Assembly (NCBI GenBank): GCA_019115685.1
Contig: DXDC01000205.1
Location: 1 to 11,869, forward strand
Origin: Candidatus Agrococcus pullicola
GTDB lineage: Bacteria; Actinomycetota; Actinomycetes; Actinomycetales; Microbacteriaceae
DNA length: 11,869 bases
Direction: 5' to 3'
Every line of letters starts with the position of its first letter. Position 1 is the stretch's first letter. Positions 1,600-11,869 of the stretch are shown here, one piece after another. Below the pieces are notes generated by a model. That model ran no database searches, was not told the origin of the DNA, and worked only from the letters and a program-made list of their open reading frames with translations. Position numbers and translations under genes: made by a program.

Positions 1600-2583
1600 T
1601 CAGTCGCGGGTCGACGCCCTGTACTGCACTTCGATCTCGAGCGGCACGACCTCGTCGGGGGCTCGCTCCCCGCGCAGGATGCCAAGCAGGAGTTCCACGC
1701 AGCGGGCGCCGGCGGGGCGCGGGGCAAGATCGATCGCGGTCACGGGCGGGTCGACGTAGGCGAGCGCAGGGTTGTCCACCAGCGCGGCGATCTGCACGTC
1801 GTCGCCCGGCTGCTTGCCGGAATCCTGCAGGACGTCCATGACCACGAGCGCGGAACCGTCCGGTCCGCAGAGCACAGCGTCTATGCCTTCGTCGAGCGAC
1901 AGCAGCTCCCTCGCCGCCTCAGCGAGCGTGGCGGAGTCGGAGCCGAATGTTCGCTCCGCGACCAAGGGCCGCTTACCGTTCTCGCGGCACCACTGCCGAT
2001 ACGCAGTTTGCACGCGCGTGCCCCAGTTGGTGCTGCGGGGAGAAGCGAGCAACGCCGGTGTGGATGCTCCCTGCGCGACGAAGTGATCCAGCAGTTCGCG
2101 CACACCGGCTTCGTGATCGGCTGAAACGATACCCGCCTGATCGGCGCCATCCGCGGGCTCGAGCGTCACGACGGGAACATCGAGGTCCATCAGCTGCGTT
2201 GCCGCGGTGTCGTGCGCAAGCGGGTCGAGCAGGATAACCCCGTCAACGGGCGGGCGATGCCCGCCGAACAGCCGCTGCGAGGTGATGAGCGTCACGTTGG
2301 TCTGCTGCCTCGCGGCTTCCTCGAGCGCGCCGTACACGATCTGCAGGTAGTAATCGATCCGCGTCATGACCTCGGGGAGGTGGATGCCGATCGCTCCCTT
2401 CGTGGCAGTCCTGAGCGATTGCGCGGCAGCGTTCGGGCGGTATCCGAGCGCGGATGCGGCGCGTTCGACCATCAGCCTGGTGGGCTCGGATACTCGACCG
2501 TTGTTATTGAGTGCGTCCGAAGCTGTCGTCCGTGAGACTCCTGCGAGTCGAGCCACGTCGACGATCGTGATGGCCTTCTTCAT
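1600..2583 (-). CDS. LacI-family transcriptional regulator, probable repressor of the divergent transporter-hydrolase operon
   Basis: Full-length LacI/GalR protein of 327 residues. The N-terminal helix-turn-helix (about residues 5-25) reads ITIVDVARLAGVSRTTASDA, a near-textbook family start, which also fixes the ATG at 2583-2581. The hinge-helix region follows at about 48-60 with NAAAQSLRTA. Residues about 63-327 are the periplasmic-binding-protein-like effector domain, ending PLEIEVQYRAS as is usual. Family members bind small molecules, usually sugars or nucleosides, and release DNA or change affinity. Here the neighbour is a peptide-type ABC operon, so the ligand may not be a sugar. No strong ribosome site is seen; a TGTG-5-CACA repeat at 2588-2600 lies just before the start codon and could take part in self-control. 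Divergence from the operon and the two palindromes in between support local regulation. Confidence 0.93.
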   Translation of the reverse strand: MKKAITIVDVARLAGVSRTTASDALNNNGRVSEPTRLMVERAASALGYRPNAAAQSLRTATKGAIGIHLPEVMTRIDYYLQIVYGALEEAARQQTNVTLITSQRLFGGHRPPVDGVILLDPLAHDTAATQLMDLDVPVVTLEPADGADQAGIVSADHEAGVRELLDHFVAQGASTPALLASPRSTNWGTRVQTAYRQWCRENGKRPLVAERTFGSDSATLAEAARELLSLDEGIDAVLCGPDGSALVVMDVLQDSGKQPGDDVQIAALVDNPALAYVDPPVTAIDLAPRPAGARCVELLLGILRGERAPDEVVPLEIEVQYRASTRD

Positions 2584-2690: not shown

Positions 2691-2719
2691 TTGACCTTTG
2701 TGGGTAGGTTGCCTACATT
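2691..2719 (+). promoter_or_regulatory. Sigma-70-type promoter of the transporter-hydrolase operon
   Basis: TTGACC (2691-2696; 5/6 to TTGACA) and TACATT (2714-2719; 4/6 to TATAAT) are separated by exactly 17 bases. Transcription would start near 2726, giving a leader of about 60 bases before the lipoprotein start at 2787. An inverted repeat GTAGG-TTG-CCTAC (2704-2716) overlaps the spacer and the -10 box, and an 8-bp palindrome GTAATTAC (2683-2690) abuts the -35 box. Either could be a further protein-binding site. Confidence 0.65.
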
Positions 2720-2786: not shown

Positions 2787-4397
2787 GTGCGCAGCAAGAC
2801 AAAGGCCCTCACGGGAGTCGCGGTTGTCGCGGCGCTCGTACTCACCGCCTGTTCTGGACCGAATGACGACAGCGACGAAGCCGGGCTTGATCTGCCGGAC
2901 GGATACGCGGCGTACGACGACCCCGCGGTCGAGAGCGCGGGCGGAACGCTGAGCATGCAGCTCGACTACGACACGGCGGAAACGGGCGGGCTCGACCCGG
3001 CAACCGCGGAAATCGCGCGTTCCTGGACGATCATGGGGCTCGTATACGAGTCTCTCGTCTCCATTGGCCCGAACTTCGAGATCGAGCCGGAACTCGCGAC
3101 CTCGTGGGAGCAGCCCGACGAGACCACCTACGTCTTCGACCTCCAGCCGGACGCAACGTTCTCCAACGGCAGGGCGGTGAGTGCCGACGATGTCGTCGGT
3201 TCCTTCGAACGGCTCCTGGACATGGGTGCGCTGTGGGCGGGGCAGCTGGGGCCGATCGAGTCGATCGAGGACACATCCGACGGCGACGCGCAGCAGGTGA
3301 CGATCTCACTCGAACGCCCGTACACGCCGCTGCTGGCAGCACTCGCGAACACCCCGGCGGCCATCCTGCCCATGGAAGAGCTCGACGCTGGCGACTTCGA
3401 CCCGGCAGAGGAGATGCTGGGCTCCGGTGCTTTCGCAGTCTCCGATCACCGACAGGACGAGTATTGGGTGTTCGAGGCGAACCCCGAGTGGTGGAACGCC
3501 GACTCGTTGGGCGTGGAGGAGCTCCGCATCGAAATCTCCGGTGACGACCAGACTCGACTTGCAGGGCTGCGCGACGGATCGTCGCAGTTCGCGAACTTCT
3601 CGAACCCGGACGCGTTGTCGTTGCTGGAATCGGCGCAGGGCGTGACCGCGGCCAGTCAAACGCAGAGCGACTTCTTCTACCTCATGTTCAATGCTCTCGG
3701 CGATTCTGACATGGCAGAGCAGGAGACCCGTCAGCTCGTGAACGCTGCGATCGACCGCGAACAGCTGGTCGATGTCGCGCTTGCCGGTGCCGCTGTCCCG
3801 ACCGGCGTGACTCCCGCGAATCTGCCCGATGCCTGCTCGGCAGAAACGCTGCAGTCGGCGAACACCGAGGTCGAAGCGGGTGCGCTCGAAGGACTCTCGT
3901 TATCGCTGCTGGTCTACAACAGCGACCCGTCGCTCGTGGCGATCGGTCAGGTCGTGCAGCAGCAGCTCGAGGCCGCGGGTGCCACCGTGGAGCTCGAAAG
4001 CCTTGACTACGGCAGCTATGCCGACCGCGTCTACACGGCGCAGCCCGGGCAGTTCGACCTCGCGCTCGGGTGGTTCGCCGGTTACGCGGATCCGTCGATG
4101 GTGACGTCGTGGTGGGACCCCGATACGGCCATTTTCAACGCCGGGTTCATGGAGTCGCACGACGACCTCACAGCCGCGATCGAGGAGGCAAAGGGTCTCG
4201 AGTCCGGCGACGAACGCGCAGAAGCGCTGCAGACGGTCTGCGAACTCGTCGACGACTACTCGGAGATGGTGCCGCTCGCAACCCGGCCACAGGTGGTCGG
4301 TTACCGATCCGACAGCCTCGGCATCACGCTGCTGACGGATGAGGGCTACGGCGACTTCCTGCGCGGCATCGTCGACTTCAGGACGCTCGAGTCCTGA
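2787..4397 (+). CDS. Peptide/nickel-type ABC transporter substrate-binding lipoprotein (SBP family 5)
   Basis: Extracytoplasmic binding protein of 536 residues that would deliver substrate to the permeases encoded next. The start is GTG 2787, because GGGAGG at 2775-2780 lies 6 bases before it and the product then begins with a proper lipoprotein signal: MRSKTK, a hydrophobic stretch, then LTAC with the lipidated cysteine at about residue 22. A short acidic linker follows. The mature part shows family-5 features: GLDPATAE near the start, YESLVSI, PELATSWEQ, then TYVFDLQPDATFSNGRAVSADDVVGSFERLL, and GSGAFAV in the middle. The family takes oligopeptides, dipeptides, nickel chelates and some glycosides or opines, so substrate cannot be set from sequence alone. 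First gene of the operon; its TGA shares one base with the ATG of the permease. Confidence 0.93.
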   Translation: MRSKTKALTGVAVVAALVLTACSGPNDDSDEAGLDLPDGYAAYDDPAVESAGGTLSMQLDYDTAETGGLDPATAEIARSWTIMGLVYESLVSIGPNFEIEPELATSWEQPDETTYVFDLQPDATFSNGRAVSADDVVGSFERLLDMGALWAGQLGPIESIEDTSDGDAQQVTISLERPYTPLLAALANTPAAILPMEELDAGDFDPAEEMLGSGAFAVSDHRQDEYWVFEANPEWWNADSLGVEELRIEISGDDQTRLAGLRDGSSQFANFSNPDALSLLESAQGVTAASQTQSDFFYLMFNALGDSDMAEQETRQLVNAAIDREQLVDVALAGAAVPTGVTPANLPDACSAETLQSANTEVEAGALEGLSLSLLVYNSDPSLVAIGQVVQQQLEAAGATVELESLDYGSYADRVYTAQPGQFDLALGWFAGYADPSMVTSWWDPDTAIFNAGFMESHDDLTAAIEEAKGLESGDERAEALQTVCELVDDYSEMVPLATRPQVVGYRSDSLGITLLTDEGYGDFLRGIVDFRTLES

Positions 4398-5362
4398 TGC
4401 AGGCACTGCTGTGGGCGGGGAGGCGGGTTCTGACAGGGCTCGTCACCCTGCTCGGCATCGCAATCCTGGTGTTCATGGCGGCCAGGATCGTGCCGGGCCA
4501 GACCGCGGACGTGCTGCTCGGACCGCTTGCGACCCCTGAGCAGCGCGAGACGCTGACGGAGGAGCTCGGTCTGAACGAGGGGCTGCTCACGCAGTTCTCG
4601 ATTTGGATGGGCAACGTGCTGCAGGGCGACTTCGGCGACTCGATCGTCTCCCGGCAGCCGGTGCTGGAGGAACTGGCGCTGCGGTTGCCGGTGACGGCGA
4701 CGATCGCGCTGCTGGCGCTGTTGATGGCGCTGCTGGTCGGCATCCCCGTCGGTACGGTGCAGGCGCTGCGAGCAAGCCGGAGGGGCGGTGCGGTCGCATC
4801 CCGCATTGCGAGTGGCTTGGGCATCAGCGTCCCCGACTTCGTCCTCGGTGCACTCGTCGTGCTGGTTTTTTCGACGCTCCCTCTGGGCATCACGATCGGC
4901 AATTTCACGTCGGTCACCGACACGTTCTGGCGCGGCGTCGCCTCTTCTCTCCTGCCCGCGGCCGTGCTCGCGGTCTTCTGCGCCGCAGCCACAGCCAGGA
5001 CCACGCGCGACGCGGTCCTCGGTGTGCTCGTCGAGCCGTACATCCAGGCAGCCGTCGCCCGCGGTGAACGGCCCGCGACGATCGTGCGGCGGCACGTGCT
5101 GCGCAACAGCTCGATCCCCATCCTCACGCTGACGGCGACGCTGCTGGCGTACCTGCTCGGAGGAGCCGTCATTATCGAGGGACTCTTCAACGTGCCCGGT
5201 ATCGGCTCGTACTTCATTCTTGCCATGGACCGGCGAGACTACGCAGTCATCCAGGCCGGCGTGATGCTGGCGGCCGTCGTCTTCGTGCTGATGAGCCTGC
5301 TGGTCGAACTGACCTCCAGCCTCATCGACCCCCGGGTATCGACGATCGGAAAGGCATCATGA
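4397..5362 (+). CDS. ABC transporter permease, DppB/OppB type
   Basis: Inner-membrane permease of 321 residues, normal length for the DppB type. It has an N-terminal membrane helix (about 9-31), the conserved extracytoplasmic segment with GDFGDS at 77-82, further hydrophobic helices, and the cytoplasmic coupling loop starting EPYIQAAVARG at about 213, which contacts the ATPase. It ends with the DPRV motif near 311-314 typical of this subfamily. It should form a heterodimer with the next permease. The start ATG shares one base with the stop of the binding-protein gene and has only a weak, distant ribosome site, suggesting translational coupling. Confidence 0.93.
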   Translation: MQALLWAGRRVLTGLVTLLGIAILVFMAARIVPGQTADVLLGPLATPEQRETLTEELGLNEGLLTQFSIWMGNVLQGDFGDSIVSRQPVLEELALRLPVTATIALLALLMALLVGIPVGTVQALRASRRGGAVASRIASGLGISVPDFVLGALVVLVFSTLPLGITIGNFTSVTDTFWRGVASSLLPAAVLAVFCAAATARTTRDAVLGVLVEPYIQAAVARGERPATIVRRHVLRNSSIPILTLTATLLAYLLGGAVIIEGLFNVPGIGSYFILAMDRRDYAVIQAGVMLAAVVFVLMSLLVELTSSLIDPRVSTIGKAS

Positions 5363-6231
5363 CCGGCACGGCCGCGAGCCGGGCGACTGCCGCCGGCGGG
5401 CTCCGCAAGCTGCGCACGAGCGACCCGGTGTTCTTCACAGCGCTCGGACTGCTGACGCTGCTCATCCTCGCGAGCGTCGCGGGTCGACTGATCCCCGGCC
5501 TCAACGACGGCGCGAGCAGCGTCGGAGGCCGCTTCGAGGCTCCCAGCCTCGCGCACCCGCTCGGCACCGACGGTCTGGGGCGCTCGCTGCTGGCCCGCCT
5601 CCTCGAGGGCATCGGCACGACCTTCCTGCTCTCGCTCGCAGCCGTCGTCTGCACGGCGATCATCGCCACTGCACTCGGCATCATCGCCGCGTACGCGGGC
5701 GGATGGGCACGTGAGATCGTCATGCGGATCGGCGACATCCTCTACGCTTTCCCCGCGATCCTGCTCGCGTTGCTCATCGCCGCGTCGCTCGGGCCAGGAG
5801 GAACAGCGGCACTCGCGAGCATCGTGCTGGTGACCGTGCCGCTCATGACAAGGATGGTCGGAGCAGCAGCCGCACAGGTGGTGCAGCGCGACTTCGTCAC
5901 CAACGCACGCATATCCGGTGTCGCGGCGCCGCTCATCATGGTGCGGCATGTGCTCGTGAACGTTGCGGGAACCGTGATCGTGCAGGCGACCTATGCGCTG
6001 AGCGTCGCGATCCTGGTCGAGGGCGGGCTGTCCTTCCTCGGCTACGGTGTGCAGCTGCCGGCATCCTCGCTCGGACTGCTCGCCAGTGAAGGGAACGTGT
6101 ACATGCTGACGGCGCCCTGGATCCTGATCGCGTCCGGCGGCACCATGGTGATCGCGATCCTCGCCGTAAATCTCCTCGGCGACTGCTTGCGCGATCGACT
6201 CGAGCCTCGGAAGGCGGTGGACCTCACGTGA
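5359..6231 (+). CDS. ABC transporter permease, DppC/OppC type
   Basis: Second permease, 290 residues. A helix at about 22-44 is followed by the DppC hallmark HPLGTDGLGRS at 66-76, then five further hydrophobic segments, the coupling loop DFVTNARISG at about 178-187, and EGGLSFLGYGVQLP near 231. The C-terminus NLLGDCLRDRLEPR matches the usual NLLGD-LRD-LDPR ending, with Glu in place of Asp. It overlaps the upstream permease by 4 bases (ATGA) and has GGAAAGG 4 bases before the start. It pairs with the DppB-like protein to make the membrane pore. Confidence 0.93.
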   Translation: MTGTAASRATAAGGLRKLRTSDPVFFTALGLLTLLILASVAGRLIPGLNDGASSVGGRFEAPSLAHPLGTDGLGRSLLARLLEGIGTTFLLSLAAVVCTAIIATALGIIAAYAGGWAREIVMRIGDILYAFPAILLALLIAASLGPGGTAALASIVLVTVPLMTRMVGAAAAQVVQRDFVTNARISGVAAPLIMVRHVLVNVAGTVIVQATYALSVAILVEGGLSFLGYGVQLPASSLGLLASEGNVYMLTAPWILIASGGTMVIAILAVNLLGDCLRDRLEPRKAVDLT

Positions 6232-7070
6232 GCCTGATAGAAGTCGACGATCTGGTCGTCGAGTACGCAACGCGCGATCGCACGGTTCGCGCGCTCGACG
6301 GTGTTTCGCTACGCGTCGAGGCGGGAGAGCGACTCGCTCTCGTCGGTGAATCGGGCAGCGGGAAATCAACCCTCGGAGTATCGCTCGGGGCGCTGCTGCC
6401 GGCGCCGGCTCGCATCGCCGAGGGCAGTGTTACCGTGAACGGATATGCGTTGGGGGAACTCGACCGGGACGGGTTGCGCACGCTGCGCAGGGAAACCCTC
6501 GGGTTCATCCCGCAGGATCCGATCGCGACGCTCGACCCGACCAAGCGCATCGGTAAGCAGCTAGCGATGGTCGTCGGTGATCTCGGCGGTGACACGTCCA
6601 GGGCGGCGCTCGCGAACCTGCTGGAAGATGTCCGAATCAACGACCCTGCAGCCGTGCTGCGCAGATTCCCGCACCAACTCTCCGGGGGAATGGCGCAGCG
6701 GGTAGCGGTCGCCATCGCGATGGTGCGGAAGCCCCGTGTACTCGTCGCCGATGAGCCGACCGCAGCGCTCGATGCGAACGTGCGACGGGATGTGCTGCGA
6801 CTGATCTTCGACATCGCCGCCGAAACGGGCGCAACCGTGATCTGGCTGAGTCACGACCTGGACGCCGTCGCCAAGTGGTGTGAACGGGTGGCCGTCATGT
6901 ATCGCGGCAAAGTCGTCGAGGACGGCCCCGTGGGCATCGTCTTGCAGGAGCCGGAGCACCCGTACACGAAGTCGCTGCTGGACTCGATGCCCTCTCGCCT
7001 GCAGCACGGTGTCGAAGTACGCACCTACACCGAGATGCTGCGCATGCAGGGCGAGGAGGGAACGGTATGA
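6228..7070 (+). CDS. ABC transporter ATPase, DppD/OppD type, short form
   Basis: Cytoplasmic ATPase of 280 residues that powers the importer. Motifs in order: Walker A GESGSGKST at 40-48, Q-loop PQDP with Gln96, signature LSGGMAQR at 151-158, Walker B VLVADEP ending near 177, and the switch histidine in SHD at 209. All residues needed for ATP hydrolysis are present. The C-terminal PEHPYTKSLL marks the start of the oligopeptide-transporter extension, but the protein is shorter than typical DppD/OppD (around 320-335) and lacks the cysteine-containing tail. Start is GTG 6228, overlapping the permease stop by 4 bases. It likely forms a heterodimer with the next ATPase. Confidence 0.93.
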   Translation: MSLIEVDDLVVEYATRDRTVRALDGVSLRVEAGERLALVGESGSGKSTLGVSLGALLPAPARIAEGSVTVNGYALGELDRDGLRTLRRETLGFIPQDPIATLDPTKRIGKQLAMVVGDLGGDTSRAALANLLEDVRINDPAAVLRRFPHQLSGGMAQRVAVAIAMVRKPRVLVADEPTAALDANVRRDVLRLIFDIAAETGATVIWLSHDLDAVAKWCERVAVMYRGKVVEDGPVGIVLQEPEHPYTKSLLDSMPSRLQHGVEVRTYTEMLRMQGEEGTV

Positions 7071-7798
7071 GTCTGCTGGAGCTCGACAGCGTCACCGTGC
7101 GCTTCGGCGTCGGGGCACGCGCGGTCGTTGCCATGCGCGACGTGTCGTTCAGCGTTGAGGCCGGTGAGACCCTCGGACTCGTGGGGGAATCGGGCAGCGG
7201 AAAGTCCACGGCGGCATCCGTGGCGCTCGGGCTCCGGTCTCCGAACTCCGGTGAGGTGCTCTTCGAAGGCGAGCGGTTGCGCCGCCGACGTGCAGCGGGC
7301 CGGATGCAGGCGGTGCTGCAGCATCCCGTCTGGGCGCTGAACCCGAGAATGACCGTCGCCGCATCCATCGCCGAGCCGCTGCAGGTGCAGACCCGAGGCC
7401 GGACGCGGGTGCGCGAGCGCGTGCAGGAGATGCTCGAATCGGTCGCGCTCGATGACGCTCTCGCAACGCGTCGACCTCACGAGCTCTCCGGCGGGCAGCG
7501 ACAGCGCGTCGCAATCGCCCGAGCGCTCATCACTCGCCCGCGATTCATCGTGTTCGACGAAGCCGTCAGCGCGCTGGACGTATCGGTGCAGGCGCAGATC
7601 CTGCAACTGCTGCGCAGACTCCAGCAGGAGCACGGTTTCGGCGCGCTCTTCATAACCCACGACATGGCCGTCGTCCGCTACATCGCCGACAGCATCTGCG
7701 TGATGCGCTCCGGCGAGGTCGTGGAGTCGGCGACGCTGGAGGCATTCGTGGCCGACCCTCAGCATCCGTATTCCCGCACACTCTTGGAGGAACAATGA
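7067..7798 (+). CDS. ABC transporter ATPase, DppF/OppF type, short form
   Basis: Second ATPase, 243 residues. Walker A GESGSGKST at 40-48, signature LSGGQRQRV at 140-148, Walker B FIVFDEAVSALD with Asp164-Glu165, and the switch histidine in ITHD at 198. The DEAVSALD variant is common in DppF/OppF. It stops right after PQHPYSRTLL, so almost the whole C-terminal oligopeptide extension is missing; DppF proteins are usually above 300 residues. The ribosome site GAGGAGGG at 7053-7060 lies 6 bases before the ATG, and the start overlaps the upstream stop by 4 bases. Confidence 0.93.
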   Translation: MSLLELDSVTVRFGVGARAVVAMRDVSFSVEAGETLGLVGESGSGKSTAASVALGLRSPNSGEVLFEGERLRRRRAAGRMQAVLQHPVWALNPRMTVAASIAEPLQVQTRGRTRVRERVQEMLESVALDDALATRRPHELSGGQRQRVAIARALITRPRFIVFDEAVSALDVSVQAQILQLLRRLQQEHGFGALFITHDMAVVRYIADSICVMRSGEVVESATLEAFVADPQHPYSRTLLEEQ

Positions 7799-8844
7799 AC
7801 GAGACCCACTTCGCACCGCAGCACCACTGGGATGCATCCCCGCGGCACACGGATCGATCCTCGTTCGAGTCGCTCGCCGTCAACGCCGATGCATCGCTTA
7901 CGCCGGTACCGGGCGATCACGGTCGAGTCGTCGAGTTCGACTTCCCGCGCGTGAGCGTCGGGGTCGCCGAGTATGCGGAGGGCCCGACGGGCGTCACGGT
8001 CGTCGAGGTCGAGGGCGGTGCCCGCACGGCGATCGACGAACGCGGCGGCGCGATCGGCATAACCGGCCGCTACCCCTTCAACCACGCGATCACGATCGCA
8101 GGCGGCAGCGTGCACGGGCTCGCGGCCGCGAGCGGCGTCACGGATGCACTGCTGGAAGAGCGCGGACGCCGCACCGGGTTCGGCGATCTCTCGCTCGTGA
8201 CCGGCGCGTGCATCTACGACTTCGCAGTGCGCGACAATGCGATTACGCCCGACAACGCGCTGGGCCGTGCCGCGCACGAGCGCCGGGATGCTCGGCTCGC
8301 TCCGGTCGGCAGGGTCGGAGCCGGAGTCGGCGGCAGCTGCGGCAAGATGAGCCCGCGCTCGACGGAATGGGCCGGTCAGGGCGTCGCATTCCGTGAGTTC
8401 GGTGGCTTCAAAGTGTTTGCGCTCACCGTCGTCAACGCGGTCGGGGCCGTTATCGACCGCGACGGCACCGTGCTGCGCGGCAATGTGCAGCCCGACGGGA
8501 CGCGCCGACATCCCGTCATTGACGGCACCGGACTGTTCGAAGACCAGCAGGCGTCAGCGGACGGTCCGCAGACGGGCAACACCACGATCTCCGTCGTCGT
8601 CACGAACGCGAAACTCTCCGACACCGACCTGCGCCAGCTCGCGACGCAGATCCACTCGTCCATGCACCGCGGCATCCAGCCCTTCCACACGCAGTTGGAC
8701 GGCGACACGCTGTTCCTGCTGACCACCGACGAGGTCGACCTGCCCGTCTACAACCCGCGCGACGGTCTGGGGCAGAGCATCGCGTCGTTCGGCGCGATCG
8801 CGTCCGAGGTGATGTGGGACGCAATCATCGAGGGCGTTCGCTGA
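7795..8844 (+). CDS. P1-family self-processing hydrolase (DmpA/BapA/NylC-like aminopeptidase or amidase)
   Basis: 349 residues without a signal peptide, so probably cytosolic. Family P1 enzymes are N-terminal-nucleophile hydrolases that cut themselves into two chains and then use the newly exposed Ser or Thr. Known members act on D-amino-acid amides, beta-peptides or nylon oligomers. Seen here: GGSVHGLAAASGV at about 103-115, VGAGVGGSCGK near 175-185, and GNTTISVVVTNAKL with Asn262-Thr263. The Asn-Thr pair is where NylC-type members cleave (Asn266/Thr267 in NylC), so Thr263 is the predicted nucleophile; DmpA uses Gly-Ser instead. Strong ribosome site GGAGG lies 4 bases before the ATG, which overlaps the ATPase stop. 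Co-transcription with a peptide-type importer suggests it hydrolyses the imported compound. Substrate is unknown. Confidence 0.88.
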   Translation: MNETHFAPQHHWDASPRHTDRSSFESLAVNADASLTPVPGDHGRVVEFDFPRVSVGVAEYAEGPTGVTVVEVEGGARTAIDERGGAIGITGRYPFNHAITIAGGSVHGLAAASGVTDALLEERGRRTGFGDLSLVTGACIYDFAVRDNAITPDNALGRAAHERRDARLAPVGRVGAGVGGSCGKMSPRSTEWAGQGVAFREFGGFKVFALTVVNAVGAVIDRDGTVLRGNVQPDGTRRHPVIDGTGLFEDQQASADGPQTGNTTISVVVTNAKLSDTDLRQLATQIHSSMHRGIQPFHTQLDGDTLFLLTTDEVDLPVYNPRDGLGQSIASFGAIASEVMWDAIIEGVR

Positions 8845-8845
8845 C

Positions 8846-9544
8846 GTGCACACGTATCCGAACTATCACGCACCGGACGGCAGAGCGCTCGTCGATCTGG
8901 TGCGCACGACGCCGTTCGCGCTCGCGGTCACCTCGCAGCCGGGAGCGCCGATAGCGACGCACGTTCCCGTCGTTGTGCCCCCGGGTGTGGATCTGCGCGA
9001 ACGGGATTCGCTCGTCGGCGTCACCCTGTGGTCGCATATGGGCAGACGAAACCGGCACTGGCGCCTCATGGCGGAATCGCCAGAGGTGCTGCTCATCCAC
9101 TCCTCTTCTCACGGGTACGTCTCTCCCACGCTCTATCGCAAAGAAGGCTCGGTGCCGACGGTGGACTACGCGGCGGTGCATCTGACGGGCACCGTACGCT
9201 TGATGCTCGACGACGAGGAGGCGCTCGCGGTGGTTGAACAGACCGTGACCCAGCTCGAGGGAACGCGTTCCGAGCAGTGGGACATGACGCCCTCGAAGGG
9301 CGTTTTTCGCAAAATCATAGGAGGCGTCACGGCCTTCGCGATCACGATTACGGAGGAACAAGCGGTGTTCAAGCTGAGCCAAGAGCAGCCGGAGGACATT
9401 CGGGCTCGGGTGCGAGACGAATTCGCGGGCCGAACGGAGAGCTCGATCCCCGGATGCCCGCACGCGGACCTTGCGCAGCTCATGGACGCACTTCCCGATG
9501 ATCACGTGAGACGCGGGCACTTCCCTCCGGAGGCGGCGCAGTGA
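8846..9544 (+). CDS. PaiB-like FMN-binding split-barrel protein
   Basis: 232 residues beginning MHTYPNYHAPDGRALVDLV, similar in plan to Bacillus PaiB. Features: PFALAVTSQPGAPIATHVPVVV at about 28-49, the GHM-like SHMGRRNRHW near 68-77, HGYVSPTLY followed by VPTVDYAAVHLTG in the middle, and FKLSQEQPEDIRARV toward the C-terminus. These belong to the PaiB/HugZ-like flavin-binding split-barrel group. PaiB was named a negative transcription regulator in Bacillus, but the fold is that of small FMN proteins, and there is no helix-turn-helix visible; an oxidoreductase or flavin-handling role is equally possible. Start is GTG 8846, one base after the hydrolase stop; the ribosome site is weak (GAGGG, 11 bases away). 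Confidence 0.85.
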   Translation: MHTYPNYHAPDGRALVDLVRTTPFALAVTSQPGAPIATHVPVVVPPGVDLRERDSLVGVTLWSHMGRRNRHWRLMAESPEVLLIHSSSHGYVSPTLYRKEGSVPTVDYAAVHLTGTVRLMLDDEEALAVVEQTVTQLEGTRSEQWDMTPSKGVFRKIIGGVTAFAITITEEQAVFKLSQEQPEDIRARVRDEFAGRTESSIPGCPHADLAQLMDALPDDHVRRGHFPPEAAQ

Positions 9545-10620
9545 TGCGCGTGATCGAGGTCAGACTGCCGGAAGGGCCTGCTCGGCAGCGGGGTGCCGCA
9601 TACGGCCGAACTGTCAGCAACGAACTGCGCAACTCCGCCCGACTCTATGCGGGGGCGTTTCGCGACCTCGGGGTTGGGGACGCCGACGTGGACCGGGTGG
9701 TCGCGGCGAGCGCGGAGACGATTCCGGAGTACGCTCCCGAGCTCTGGCAGGAACTGCAGGGGCTGGTGGAAGGCTCTGGCGCCAGCATGCGCGATCTGCT
9801 GCTGCTCAACGCACGCACGGAAATCCTCGCCTACTCCGACGCGCCGCAGACCGAATGCTCAACGGTCGTCGCCCTCGGGCCCGGGCGCGCGCCGAGCACG
9901 ATGCAGACCTGGGACTGGCAGGCCGAGCTCGCTCCGACCGGGACGATGCTCGAGATTCCACTCGGCCACCGCGTGGTGCGCACCTTCACGGAAACCGGGA
10001 TGCTCGGGAAAATCGGTGTCACGCATGGCCTCGGCGTGCACTTCAACATCCTGAATCACGCGAGCGATCGAGGTGATGCCGGAGTTCCCGTTCACGTACT
10101 GATGCGCATGATTCTCGATCGTGCCGAAACCGTCGACGAAGCGATCGAGATCGCTCGCGCAACCCCGGTATCCGCCTCAACCGTGCTGACCGTCGTGCAG
10201 CCGCAGAGCAATCTGGGCGACGCGCACGCGGTCAGTATCGAACTGTCACCTGCGGGCGTGGCAGTTGTCGGGCCGGACGACGGACTCCTCGCGCATACGA
10301 ACCACTTCCTGGACCCAGCGCTCGCAGAGGGCGAAGCGAGAGCGGAAGAAGGCTCTACGACGAAGCCCCGCTACCGGCACACGGTGGATCAACGGGACGC
10401 CCTGCTGGCGGTCCGCGATCCCTACGCGATGGCGGAGGCCTTCTGCGGCAGCGCCGGTGATGATGCGCCGGTGTGCATGCGGCCGAAACCGGGCGCTCCT
10501 CGGTACGAGCGATGGGAGTCGCTCATCACGATCGCGCTGGATGTCGAAGCCGCGGCCATGGACTGGGCTGTCGGGCCTCCCAGCGGGTTCACGCCCGACC
10601 GAGTCGCCCGCTTCGAGTAG
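9541..10620 (+). CDS. C45-family peptidase / acyl-CoA:6-aminopenicillanic acid acyltransferase-like hydrolase
   Basis: 359 residues, no signal peptide. The C45 family comprises N-terminal-nucleophile enzymes that self-cleave before a cysteine; the fungal prototype (nucleophile Cys103) swaps acyl groups on penicillin, and bacterial members are mostly amidases of unknown substrate. Here the expected landmarks occur in order: LLLLNARTEI about 15 residues before the nucleophile, TECSTVVALG with Cys106, TWDW at 123-126 (Asp125 a candidate active-site residue), GLGVHFNIL in the middle, and HTNHFL starting at 252. The residue before the nucleophile is Glu rather than Gly. Start is GTG 9541, 7 bases after GGAGG and overlapping the PaiB-like stop by 4 bases; ATG 9544 directly after it is the alternative. 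Last gene of the operon. Confidence 0.87.
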   Translation: MMRVIEVRLPEGPARQRGAAYGRTVSNELRNSARLYAGAFRDLGVGDADVDRVVAASAETIPEYAPELWQELQGLVEGSGASMRDLLLLNARTEILAYSDAPQTECSTVVALGPGRAPSTMQTWDWQAELAPTGTMLEIPLGHRVVRTFTETGMLGKIGVTHGLGVHFNILNHASDRGDAGVPVHVLMRMILDRAETVDEAIEIARATPVSASTVLTVVQPQSNLGDAHAVSIELSPAGVAVVGPDDGLLAHTNHFLDPALAEGEARAEEGSTTKPRYRHTVDQRDALLAVRDPYAMAEAFCGSAGDDAPVCMRPKPGAPRYERWESLITIALDVEAAAMDWAVGPPSGFTPDRVARFE

Positions 10621-10691: not shown

Positions 10692-10716
10692 CATGCATGA
10701 GGCGTCGGTGTCGTCA

Positions 10717-10744
10717 TGGAACGAAACCCGATCGTGATGTTCCA
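10717..10744. promoter_or_regulatory. Spaced inverted repeat upstream of the second lipoprotein gene, possible operator
   Basis: TGGAAC (10717-10722) and GTTCCA (10739-10744) form perfect 6-bp arms around 16 bases, with CGATCG (10729-10734) almost at the centre. A TACGAT hexamer at 10771-10776 could be a -10 box, but no -35 box is found at the right distance. The position ahead of a transporter gene makes a regulator site plausible, yet nothing identifies the regulator. Confidence 0.3.
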
Positions 10745-10847
10745 CCGGCGCGAAGCGTTTCTGGACGCGCTACGATTGCCCCTATGCACGCTCACCGTGG
10801 AGCGGTTGGTGCGTGCGAACTGTTTTCTCAATGAAAGGCCCAGTACC

Positions 10848-11869
10848 GTGAGCATCAAACCTCAGAAGCGGCGCCTCAAGGCGGGGATGGCGGGTGGAGC
10901 TGCACTCGTCATCGCCCTGACAGGATGCGTGGAGAGCCAGCGTGACGGCGATGGGGACACTCCCGCAGAAGACGTCAACTCGACGTTCATCTTCGCTGCC
11001 TCGTCCGACCCATCCGGTCTCGACCCGGCATTCGCCAATGACGGAGAGACATTCCGCATCTCGCGCAATATTTTCGAAGGCCTCGTCGGGGTAGAGCCCG
11101 GCGGAGCTGACCCGGCACCGCTGCTGGCAACCGAATGGGAGGCCAGCGAAGACGGCACCTCCTACACGTTCCAGCTGCAGGACGGCGTCACCTTCCACGA
11201 TGGCACCGAGTTCAACTCGGAGGCGGTCTGCGCCAACTTCGAACGCTGGTACAACTGGGAGGGTCTCCCGGCAGCAGAGAGCATGTCGTACTACTACGGC
11301 AACCTCTTCCACGGTAACCGCGGTGATGACAACGCGCTCTACGAGTCGTGCTCGGCTGACGAAGAGCTCGTCGCAACCGTGAACCTCACCCGCCCGTTCA
11401 CAGGCTTCATCCCCGCGCTCTCACTCCCGGCGTTCGCGATGCAGAGCCCTTCGGCCATGGAAGAGTACGGCGCGGATGACGTGGGCGGCACCGAGGACGC
11501 TCCGCAGTACAGCGAGTACGCGGAATCACACCCGTCAGGTACGGGCCCGTTCACGTTCGACTCGTGGTCGCCAGGATCGGAAGTCGTGCTGCAGGCCAAC
11601 CCCGACTACTGGGGCGAGCAGGGCCAGGTGCAGGAGGTCGTGTTCAGGGTCATCGACGACCCCACGGCACGTCGCCAGGCGCTCGAAGCAGGCGACATCG
11701 ACGGGTACGACCTCGTGGCCCCGGCAGACACGGAAGCGCTGGAGAGCGCCGGCTACAACATCATGCAGCGCGACCCCTTCACGATTCTGTACCTCGGCTT
11801 CAACCAGCAGATCGAAGAGCTCGCCGACCCACTGGTCCGTGAAGCGATCACGCACGCGATCGACCGCGA
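10848..11869 (+). CDS. Second peptide-type ABC substrate-binding lipoprotein (SBP family 5), 3' end outside window
   Basis: At least 340 residues, open to the window edge. GTG 10848 is the start: GAAAGG at 10833-10838 lies 9 bases before it, and translation gives a basic N-terminus (MSIKPQKRRLK), a hydrophobic stretch, then LTGC with the lipidated cysteine at about residue 27. The mature protein has GLDPAFANDGE, RNIFEGLVG, TEWEASEDGTSYTFQLQDGVTFHDGTEFNSEAV and SGTGPFTFDSW, the standard family-5 landmarks. It resembles the common actinobacterial peptide-binding type more than the lipoprotein at 2787 does and has two cysteines after the lipobox in the visible part (VCANFERW, YESCSADE) that could form a disulphide. 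It is probably the first gene of a second transporter, separate from the upstream operon because of the 227-bp gap. Confidence 0.92.
   Translation, partial: MSIKPQKRRLKAGMAGGAALVIALTGCVESQRDGDGDTPAEDVNSTFIFAASSDPSGLDPAFANDGETFRISRNIFEGLVGVEPGGADPAPLLATEWEASEDGTSYTFQLQDGVTFHDGTEFNSEAVCANFERWYNWEGLPAAESMSYYYGNLFHGNRGDDNALYESCSADEELVATVNLTRPFTGFIPALSLPAFAMQSPSAMEEYGADDVGGTEDAPQYSEYAESHPSGTGPFTFDSWSPGSEVVLQANPDYWGEQGQVQEVVFRVIDDPTARRQALEAGDIDGYDLVAPADTEALESAGYNIMQRDPFTILYLGFNQQIEELADPLVREAITHAIDR

Follow-up and report, generated by a model that had tools for sequence, protein, structure and literature searches.

The window analysed here is a contig of 11,869 nucleotides (C144) from the genome assembly of Candidatus Agrococcus pullicola (G000; 2.98 Mb, 79% complete); its proteins are closest to those of Agrococcus. 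It contains an operon in which genes for an Opp/Dpp-type importer are followed by genes for a P1 hydrolase, a PaiB-like protein and a C45 hydrolase. On balance, we favour the view that this operon represents a catabolic regulon under the control of LacI, directed at N-hydroxylated compounds with amide linkages (hydroxamates), and we infer that desferrioxamine-type siderophores or their fragments are the most likely substrate. The gene order, its conservation, a common operator, and the presence of transaminase and aldehyde dehydrogenase genes behind that same operator can all be read from the sequences themselves.

Desferrioxamines are chains of alternating succinate and N-hydroxycadaverine units. 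The desferrioxamine reading is preferred because a nylon-type and a second amide hydrolase, an N-hydroxylamine enzyme, C5 catabolism and siderophore uptake meet in this system, and desferrioxamines are, to our knowledge, the one type of molecule that combines these features. A catabolic role is suggested because transaminase and aldehyde dehydrogenase genes stand behind the same operator. The substrate is probably an N-hydroxylated amide, given the predicted PaiB or MOSC chemistry, the C5 (glutarate) genes, and the siderophore-importer genes at some loci.

The operon, its conservation and its operator

Eight contiguous genes occupy positions 2787 to 10620 of the plus strand in the order substrate-binding protein, two permeases, two ATPases, P1, PaiB-like and C45, with intergenic spacings of -1, -4, -4, -4, -4, +1 and -4 bases. 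The coordinates, spacings and family profiles bear out the first-pass annotation, which had described eight overlapping or abutting genes for an importer, a P1, a PaiB-like and a C45 protein. The divergent LacI gene belongs to the same unit.

1600 to 2583, minus strand: LacI-family regulator, divergent from the operon (PF00356 and PF13377, both above cut-off)
2691 to 2719, plus strand: putative promoter-like boxes TTGACC, 17 bases, TACATT (sequence reading)
2728 to 2745, no strand assigned: predicted LacI-type operator TGCCGGAACGATCCGAAA, two mismatches from TGCCGGAWCGWTCCGGCA (pattern match)
2787 to 4397, plus strand: lipoprotein substrate-binding protein of the Opp/Dpp-type importer, with a GTG start and a VLTAC lipobox (PF00496, SBP_bac_5, 201.5 bits)
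4397 to 5362, plus strand: importer permease 1 (PF00528, BPD_transp_1, and PF19300)
5359 to 6231, plus strand: importer permease 2 (PF00528, BPD_transp_1)
6228 to 7070, plus strand: importer ATPase 1 (PF00005, ABC_tran)
7067 to 7798, plus strand: importer ATPase 2 (PF00005, ABC_tran)
7795 to 8844, plus strand: P1/S58 self-processing hydrolase, NylC-like, predicted nucleophile Thr263 (PF03576, NylC match)
8846 to 9544, plus strand: PaiB-like protein, predicted heme-dependent N-hydroxylamine dehydratase (PF04299; PDB matches NohD, KtzT and PipS)
9541 to 10620, plus strand: C45 (isopenicillin-N acyltransferase-like) self-processing hydrolase, predicted nucleophile Cys106 (PF03417, NF040521)

Related loci were drawn from two collections. 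The C45 collection comprised 80 named loci, the best 80 of 334; 50 of the 394 genomes of the class matched, the window's included, and the 16 best others were fetched. In the P1 collection 8 of 299 matched, again counting the window's, and 4 were fetched while 3 weaker ones were left out. Further P1 searches at E <= 1e-60 matched 3 of 396, 8 of 394, 4 of 22 and 8 of 160 in overlapping sets. Among the loci fetched and typed, we found 24 distinct operons with importer, P1 and C45 genes in several actinobacterial families (the window, L012, L014, L015, L017, L021, L037, L056, L087, L088, L090, L123, L125, L126, L129, L130, L133, L139, L140, L141, L146, L148, L149 and L151); L138, on the same contig as L017, was dropped from the count. 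The possibility that the gene set is peculiar to this strain, raised in the first-pass annotation, does not hold, as there are 23 such loci besides the window.

A LacI gene adjoins 21 of the 24 operons. Its placement varies, being downstream of C45 in L021, L087, L123, L140 and L146 and upstream on the same strand in L037 and L088, and the fetched stretches of L126, L130 and L133, for which no LacI gene is listed, end at that side. The upstream regions of the P1 loci have a common palindrome, TGCCGGAWCGWTCCGGCA, which was found with up to two mismatches at 21 of 29 P1 loci (the 24 operons plus L144, L145, L147, L150 and L152) versus 1 of 91 other loci. That single other locus, L155, belongs to the same A. 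baldri region. In three Markov-shuffled controls the count was 0 to 1 of 29, and with the reversed pattern it was zero. In the window, the predicted operator TGCCGGAACGATCCGAAA begins at 2728, directly after the promoter-like boxes, and in L021, L087, L123 and L140 two or three operator copies lie at the divergent promoters of the MOSC and binding-protein genes.

The operator was then sought across 14 whole genomes with up to one mismatch, for which the reversed control gave 0 to 2 sites per strand. There were 20 exact 16-base sites, 16 of them at the operon. Two were in the Streptomyces intergenic region between kinase-aminotransferase and siderophore-importer genes, one preceded a PepSY_TM gene (L180), and one, between convergent genes (G028 C1:2300091), probably arose by chance. 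A second scan of 11 genomes for exact sites gave one site each in 7, at the importer and P1 locus, and none in 4. The window genome has only two sites within one mismatch genome-wide, 31 bases upstream of where an aldehyde dehydrogenase gene starts (L183) and 16 bases upstream of a gamma-aminobutyrate (GABA)-type transaminase gene (L184), and both recur in the nearest relative, G1159 (L185, L186). In A. baldri and A. jejuensis (L155, L182) a one-mismatch site lies near the operon, between a divergent aldehyde dehydrogenase gene and a gene pair for coenzyme A (CoA)-transferase and glutaryl-CoA dehydrogenase. The combination of a LacI gene with a shared palindromic operator at the member genes indicates that TGCCGGAWCGWTCCGGCA marks a LacI-type regulon.

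Other sites were noted in the same scans. One with a single mismatch is at G1163 C2:20821. The PepSY_TM membrane protein gene of G028 (L180:7194-8492) has an exact and a one-mismatch operator upstream, and its family includes siderophore reductases such as FoxB. Our search for a solved sequence relative of this FoxB-like protein found none, and we consider it a candidate siderophore reductase in the regulon.

Hydrolases and predicted N-hydroxylamine enzymes

The window P1 protein matches the Peptidase_S58 profile PF03576 with 61.9 bits (cut-off 23.9), and its best solved match is NylC (PDB 5xyg, E 4e-100, 338 bits; also 3axg), an endo-type 6-aminohexanoate-oligomer hydrolase of the S58/P1 family. 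The nucleophile threonine is conserved, Thr263 falling on NylC Thr267, and the autoprocessing pair Asn262-Thr263, within a G-N-T-T motif, is present along with Lys184, Asn214, Asp302 and Asp304. These four residues align to positions 189, 219, 306 and 308, which we take to be NylC active-site residues, and the likeness at these lysine, asparagine and aspartate positions depends on that assumed numbering. Unlike NylC, the window protein is encoded in a regulated operon together with an importer, a C45 hydrolase and a predicted N-hydroxylamine enzyme. The window genome has a second S58 peptidase gene (G000 C349:107-1000, L001), which scores 323.5 bits against the Pfam profile, far above the window P1.

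The C45 protein matches NF040521 with 221.8 bits (cut-off 85) and also the AAT/C45 profile PF03417. It has in common with the autoproteolytic family of penicillin acyltransferase (AAT) the NF040521 match above cut-off and the cysteine nucleophile, but its nearest solved relative, an acyl-coenzyme A acyltransferase of the penicillin type, is remote at 59 bits, and unlike penicillin AAT it is paired with a P1 hydrolase. Both nucleophiles predicted at the outset, Thr263 of P1 and Cys106 of C45 (within E-C-S), were confirmed in position; the Thr263 column is invariant in an alignment of 23 P1 sequences, and Glu105-Cys106-Ser107 are invariant in 21 C45 sequences. The relationship of C45 to the penicillin-type enzyme, the presence of ThnT among the P1 matches and the Opp-type importer would each suit an operon that acts on an amide antibiotic, in broad detoxification or peptide salvage, and is unconnected with iron or N-OH chemistry. 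We consider this highly improbable: genes of central catabolism share the operator, which suggests that the compound is consumed and not inactivated, and the regulon members that were inspected included no evident resistance gene.

C45 genes were also seen in other settings. Of 80 C45 loci lacking P1, among which one contig (L016/L124) is counted twice, 53 are from Pseudomonas or Burkholderia, often with LysR, Amidohydro_3 and MFS genes (L023, L022 and others), and these apparently represent a different pathway. At L013, L016 (the same as L124) and L131, C45 occurs without P1 yet beside a glutaryl-CoA-dehydrogenase-like gene. A second, distant C45 paralogue adjoins the operon in A. baldri (L014:10933-12240), A. 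jejuensis (L015:11304-12491) and G253 (L141:17906-18970).

The PaiB-like protein matches the FMN_bind_2/PaiB profile PF04299 with 123.6 bits, and sequence and fold searches place it closest to the solved heme enzymes NohD (an N-hydroxylamine dehydratase), KtzT and PipS. Its AlphaFold model is weak (mean predicted local distance difference test score 67; fold matches with a root-mean-square deviation near 9 A) and served for fold assignment only. His64, Asn69, Thr105 and Lys176 are invariant in 11 aligned copies of the 15 from operons, and their spacing is that of His61, Asn66, Thr102 and Lys173 given for the piperazate synthase SbPZS in the accessible text of PMC13274692. The heme-ligating histidine and the Thr-Lys dyad of NohD-type PaiB enzymes are conserved in the window protein, which we predict to be a heme-dependent N-hydroxylamine dehydratase. 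The gene had earlier been read as encoding a flavin (flavin mononucleotide, FMN) protein, a label taken from the Pfam family name; a flavin cofactor is set aside because the nearest structures hold heme.

Unlike NohD, KtzT and PipS, the window protein is encoded in a degradation operon, and it is without the Tyr, Ala and Asn engineered into NohD. It has Val153 where SbPZS has Tyr150, and Val103 and Gly66 where engineered NohD has Ala and Asn, the engineered changes being taken from PDB entry titles and the alignment. Residues 180 to 182 (EQP) do agree with the engineered, synthase-like NohD variant, so that the test with Val103, Val153 and Gly66 is not a clean one. We rejected piperazate synthesis in view of the three missing synthase-associated residues and the catabolic setting. 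PipS is described in the available portion of PMC11705231 as dehydrating 5-hydroxyaminopentanoic acid, N6-hydroxylysine and simple hydroxylamines to imines, which yield aldehydes on hydrolysis; PMC12154649, as far as its accessible text goes, concerns a different heme family.

In six operons (L021, L037, L087, L088, L123 and L140) a protein with MOSC, FAD/NAD and 2Fe-2S domains stands in place of PaiB. It resembles the MOSC N-reductases. One of these, mARC, accepts hydroxylamines and hydroxamic acids for reduction, and the reaction of YcbX and YiiM is of the same type (PMC10637980, accessible part). The window has no MOSC reductase, and the available text of PMC10637980 describes no such operon. 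Full-length MOSC reductases are confined to 2 of 11 genomes, both with MOSC in the operon, whereas 10 of the 11 have one or two copies of PaiB.

A regulon for the breakdown of amides that bear no N-hydroxyl group, namely N-acyl diamines or amides of omega-amino acids (acyl-cadaverines, nylon-like oligomers, beta- or omega-peptides), with PaiB or MOSC as an accessory or stress protein, would be compatible with the 6-aminohexanoate-oligomer hydrolase name carried by the nearest solved P1 relatives, with the transaminase, aldehyde dehydrogenase and amine oxidase, which suit any diamine, and with three complete operons that lack both PaiB and MOSC. We nevertheless think such a regulon rather unlikely. 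PaiB is found in or beside 15 of the 24 operons and MOSC in 6, with neither in 3 and both in none, and the two families are tied to N-OH chemistry; four P1 loci also have siderophore-importer genes alongside. Neither PaiB nor MOSC occurs at any of the 80 C45 loci without P1.

C5 catabolism, siderophore import and the proposed pathway

Taken together, the amine oxidase, transaminase, aldehyde dehydrogenase, CoA-transferase and glutaryl-CoA dehydrogenase would make up a route for a C5 diamine or amino acid, through cadaverine, 5-aminovalerate and glutarate. Most loci were read for about 10 kb per side, so that counts of neighbouring genes are lower bounds. At least 7 of the 24 operons (L014, L015, L125, L126, L129, L130 and L133) have a glutaryl-CoA-dehydrogenase-like gene no more than about 10 kb from their nearer end, each time with a CoA-transferase gene. 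The L126 copy of this acyl-CoA dehydrogenase scores 584 bits against glutaryl-CoA dehydrogenase 3sf6, with all NCBIfam matches below cut-off. For the CoA-transferase, the best NCBIfam match is NF052585 (succinate-glutarate CoA-transferase), below cut-off, and the best PDB matches are a CaiB/BaiF protein and a formyl-CoA transferase, followed by succinate-hydroxymethylglutarate CoA-transferase. A copper amine oxidase (798 bits against phenylethylamine oxidase 1rjo) is encoded at 8 or more of the 24 (L125, L126, L129, L130, L133, L146, L148 and L149).

Two other routes were considered. Adipate/nylon-6 was rejected as the main route, since the solved structures most similar to the acyl-CoA dehydrogenase carry the name glutaryl-CoA dehydrogenase. 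General C45/P1 lore had also suggested beta-alanyl amines such as carnosine and carcinine; nothing of the kind was seen in the neighbourhoods, and the idea was set aside. Separately, a kinase (APH) and a class III aminotransferase are encoded beside P1 at L037:58-2514, L088/L190, L145:11249-14551 and L147:6306-9407, the domains being shown for L037 and L145, and an exact operator lies upstream of the Streptomyces genes (L037, L088/L190).

A Peripla_BP_2 binding protein and FecCD permeases are encoded beside the P1 locus in two Streptomyces (L037/L188, L088/L190) and at L150, and L152 has a Peripla_BP_2 binding protein with no FecCD match. In G429, about 9.5 kb separates the genes for a FecCD permease and an ATPase from that for C45 (L153). 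The open reading frames of the fetched loci, searched with these importer proteins, gave no others beside operons. The closest match of the L188 binding protein is PiaA (287 bits), which binds ferrichrome, a hydroxamate siderophore (PMC3741162, available text), and that of L150 is nearer to other iron-transport binding proteins. The binding-protein gene is preceded at both L150 (4 mismatches) and L152 (2 mismatches) by a palindrome resembling the operator, and also by an iron-box-like sequence with 3 to 5 mismatches from what we take to be the consensus.

The PiaA/ferrichrome-like Streptomyces binding protein raises the alternative that the substrate is a peptide siderophore with N-hydroxyornithine or N-hydroxylysine (ferrichrome, coprogen, mycobactin-like) rather than desferrioxamine. 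PDB titles describe NohD crystals with N-hydroxylated ornithine, and N6-hydroxylysine could also yield glutaryl-CoA. However, the NylC-like P1 is suited to methylene-chain amides, and the copper amine oxidase, GABA-type transaminase and CoA-transferase would better suit a free C5 diamine or amino acid, so we judge a peptide siderophore to be improbable.

In the favoured pathway for desferrioxamine-type hydroxamates, the Opp/Dpp-type importer would take up the hydroxamate, the NylC-like P1 would cleave its nylon-like amide backbone in the cytoplasm, and C45 would cleave the N-acyl bond that is left (in a hydroxamate or monohydroxamate). From the freed N-hydroxylamine, the heme PaiB-like enzyme would form an imine and then an aldehyde, while in MOSC-type operons the N-hydroxylamine would instead be reduced to the amine. 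The GABA-type transaminase and aldehyde dehydrogenase, in some genomes with the copper amine oxidase, would carry the C5 amine to glutarate, which CoA-transferase and glutaryl-CoA dehydrogenase would pass to central metabolism. Either the intact compound or its released pieces may act as inducer, releasing LacI from the operator just past the promoter. Bacteria that use desferrioxamine B as a carbon source by hydrolysing its amide bonds are on record (PMC12364333, citing Pierwola 2004 and Winkelmann 1999); this is amide hydrolysis, as proposed here, but in other organisms and with no genes named in the accessible text.

A more specific proposal can be made only tentatively: that the regulon is the genetic basis of actinobacterial desferrioxamine-type catabolism, that the succinyl/N-hydroxycadaverine backbone is the natural substrate of the NylC-like enzymes, and that a heme PaiB-like dehydratase and a molybdenum MOSC reductase are interchangeable means of removing the freed N-hydroxylamine. 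The first-pass annotation had suggested uptake and stepwise breakdown, or detoxification, of an N-acyl or non-standard peptide. Uptake and breakdown are supported by an importer conserved alongside two amide-hydrolase genes in a catabolic setting; that any non-standard peptide would serve now seems unlikely, and N-hydroxylated amides are favoured.

Several observations weigh against a hydroxamate regulon, chief among them that some operons lack both N-OH enzymes and that no siderophore importer was seen beside the window operon. The three complete operons lacking both PaiB and MOSC are L126, L130 and L133, from one genus; L144, L145 and L147 have importer and P1 without C45, PaiB or MOSC; and L150 and L152 have P1 and LacI without an Opp/Dpp-type importer, PaiB or MOSC. 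Three genomes among those without PaiB or MOSC at the P1 locus (G475, G490 and G498) keep PaiB elsewhere. Mapped on the P1 tree, MOSC requires one change (in 74% of bootstrap trees) and PaiB four. PaiB may thus have been exchanged for MOSC only once, with the outcome now present in three families, rather than many times independently. In the PaiB-like protein, the position of the synthase Tyr150 is valine, and EQP matches the synthase-like NohD variant. The operator with up to two mismatches was not found in 8 of the 29 P1 loci (L012, with 3 mismatches, L056, L090, L130, L141, L145, L147 and L150).

Import and downstream steps raise further points on the same side. The window importer is of the Opp type (SBP_bac_5/BPD_transp_1), without the Peripla_BP_2 and FecCD combination of a Fhu/Fec-type importer, and no siderophore importer was seen beside the window operon or that of its near relative L012. 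Direct iron control of the window operon was rejected, as the window has no iron box within 5 mismatches of the presumed consensus. The transaminase and aldehyde dehydrogenase of the window genome score below curated cut-offs, so that any exact substrate given for them is provisional. Glutaryl-CoA dehydrogenase is encoded in 9 of 10 operon genomes searched and was seen near the operon in only two, and that of G1159 has no operator in the fetched stretch. The MOSC-type genomes G028 and G487 have no glutarate genes in an extra 20 kb on each side, these flanks in G487 holding only a 42%-identical aldehyde dehydrogenase. The Streptomyces kinase-aminotransferase fusion fits a simple desferrioxamine route poorly.

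The operon is made up of known families; what appears to be new is their combination, together with the regulon and its proposed role. No such operon was described in the literature searched, where most subscription journals were not covered, and the genomic context of NohD may already have been described. If our reading is correct, it would assign genes to siderophore degradation, which the accessible parts of the literature found describe as chemistry without genes, and it would give relatives of nylon-degrading enzymes a natural role. It would also provide a physiological setting for the PaiB-like heme enzymes, which annotations still list as FMN proteins or regulators. All three could be tested with one small operon and a defined operator.

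Neighbouring genes in the window

Beyond the conserved operon as seen here, a second SBP_bac_5-like gene starts at about 10716 and is cut by the window end (10716 to 11869). In L012 the corresponding second SBP_bac_5-like gene is followed by two permease genes and an ATPase gene on the opposite strand. A gene for a CPBP/Rce1-like membrane protease lies at 428 to 1453, upstream of the LacI gene, and among the loci compared it occurs at the same place only in L012.

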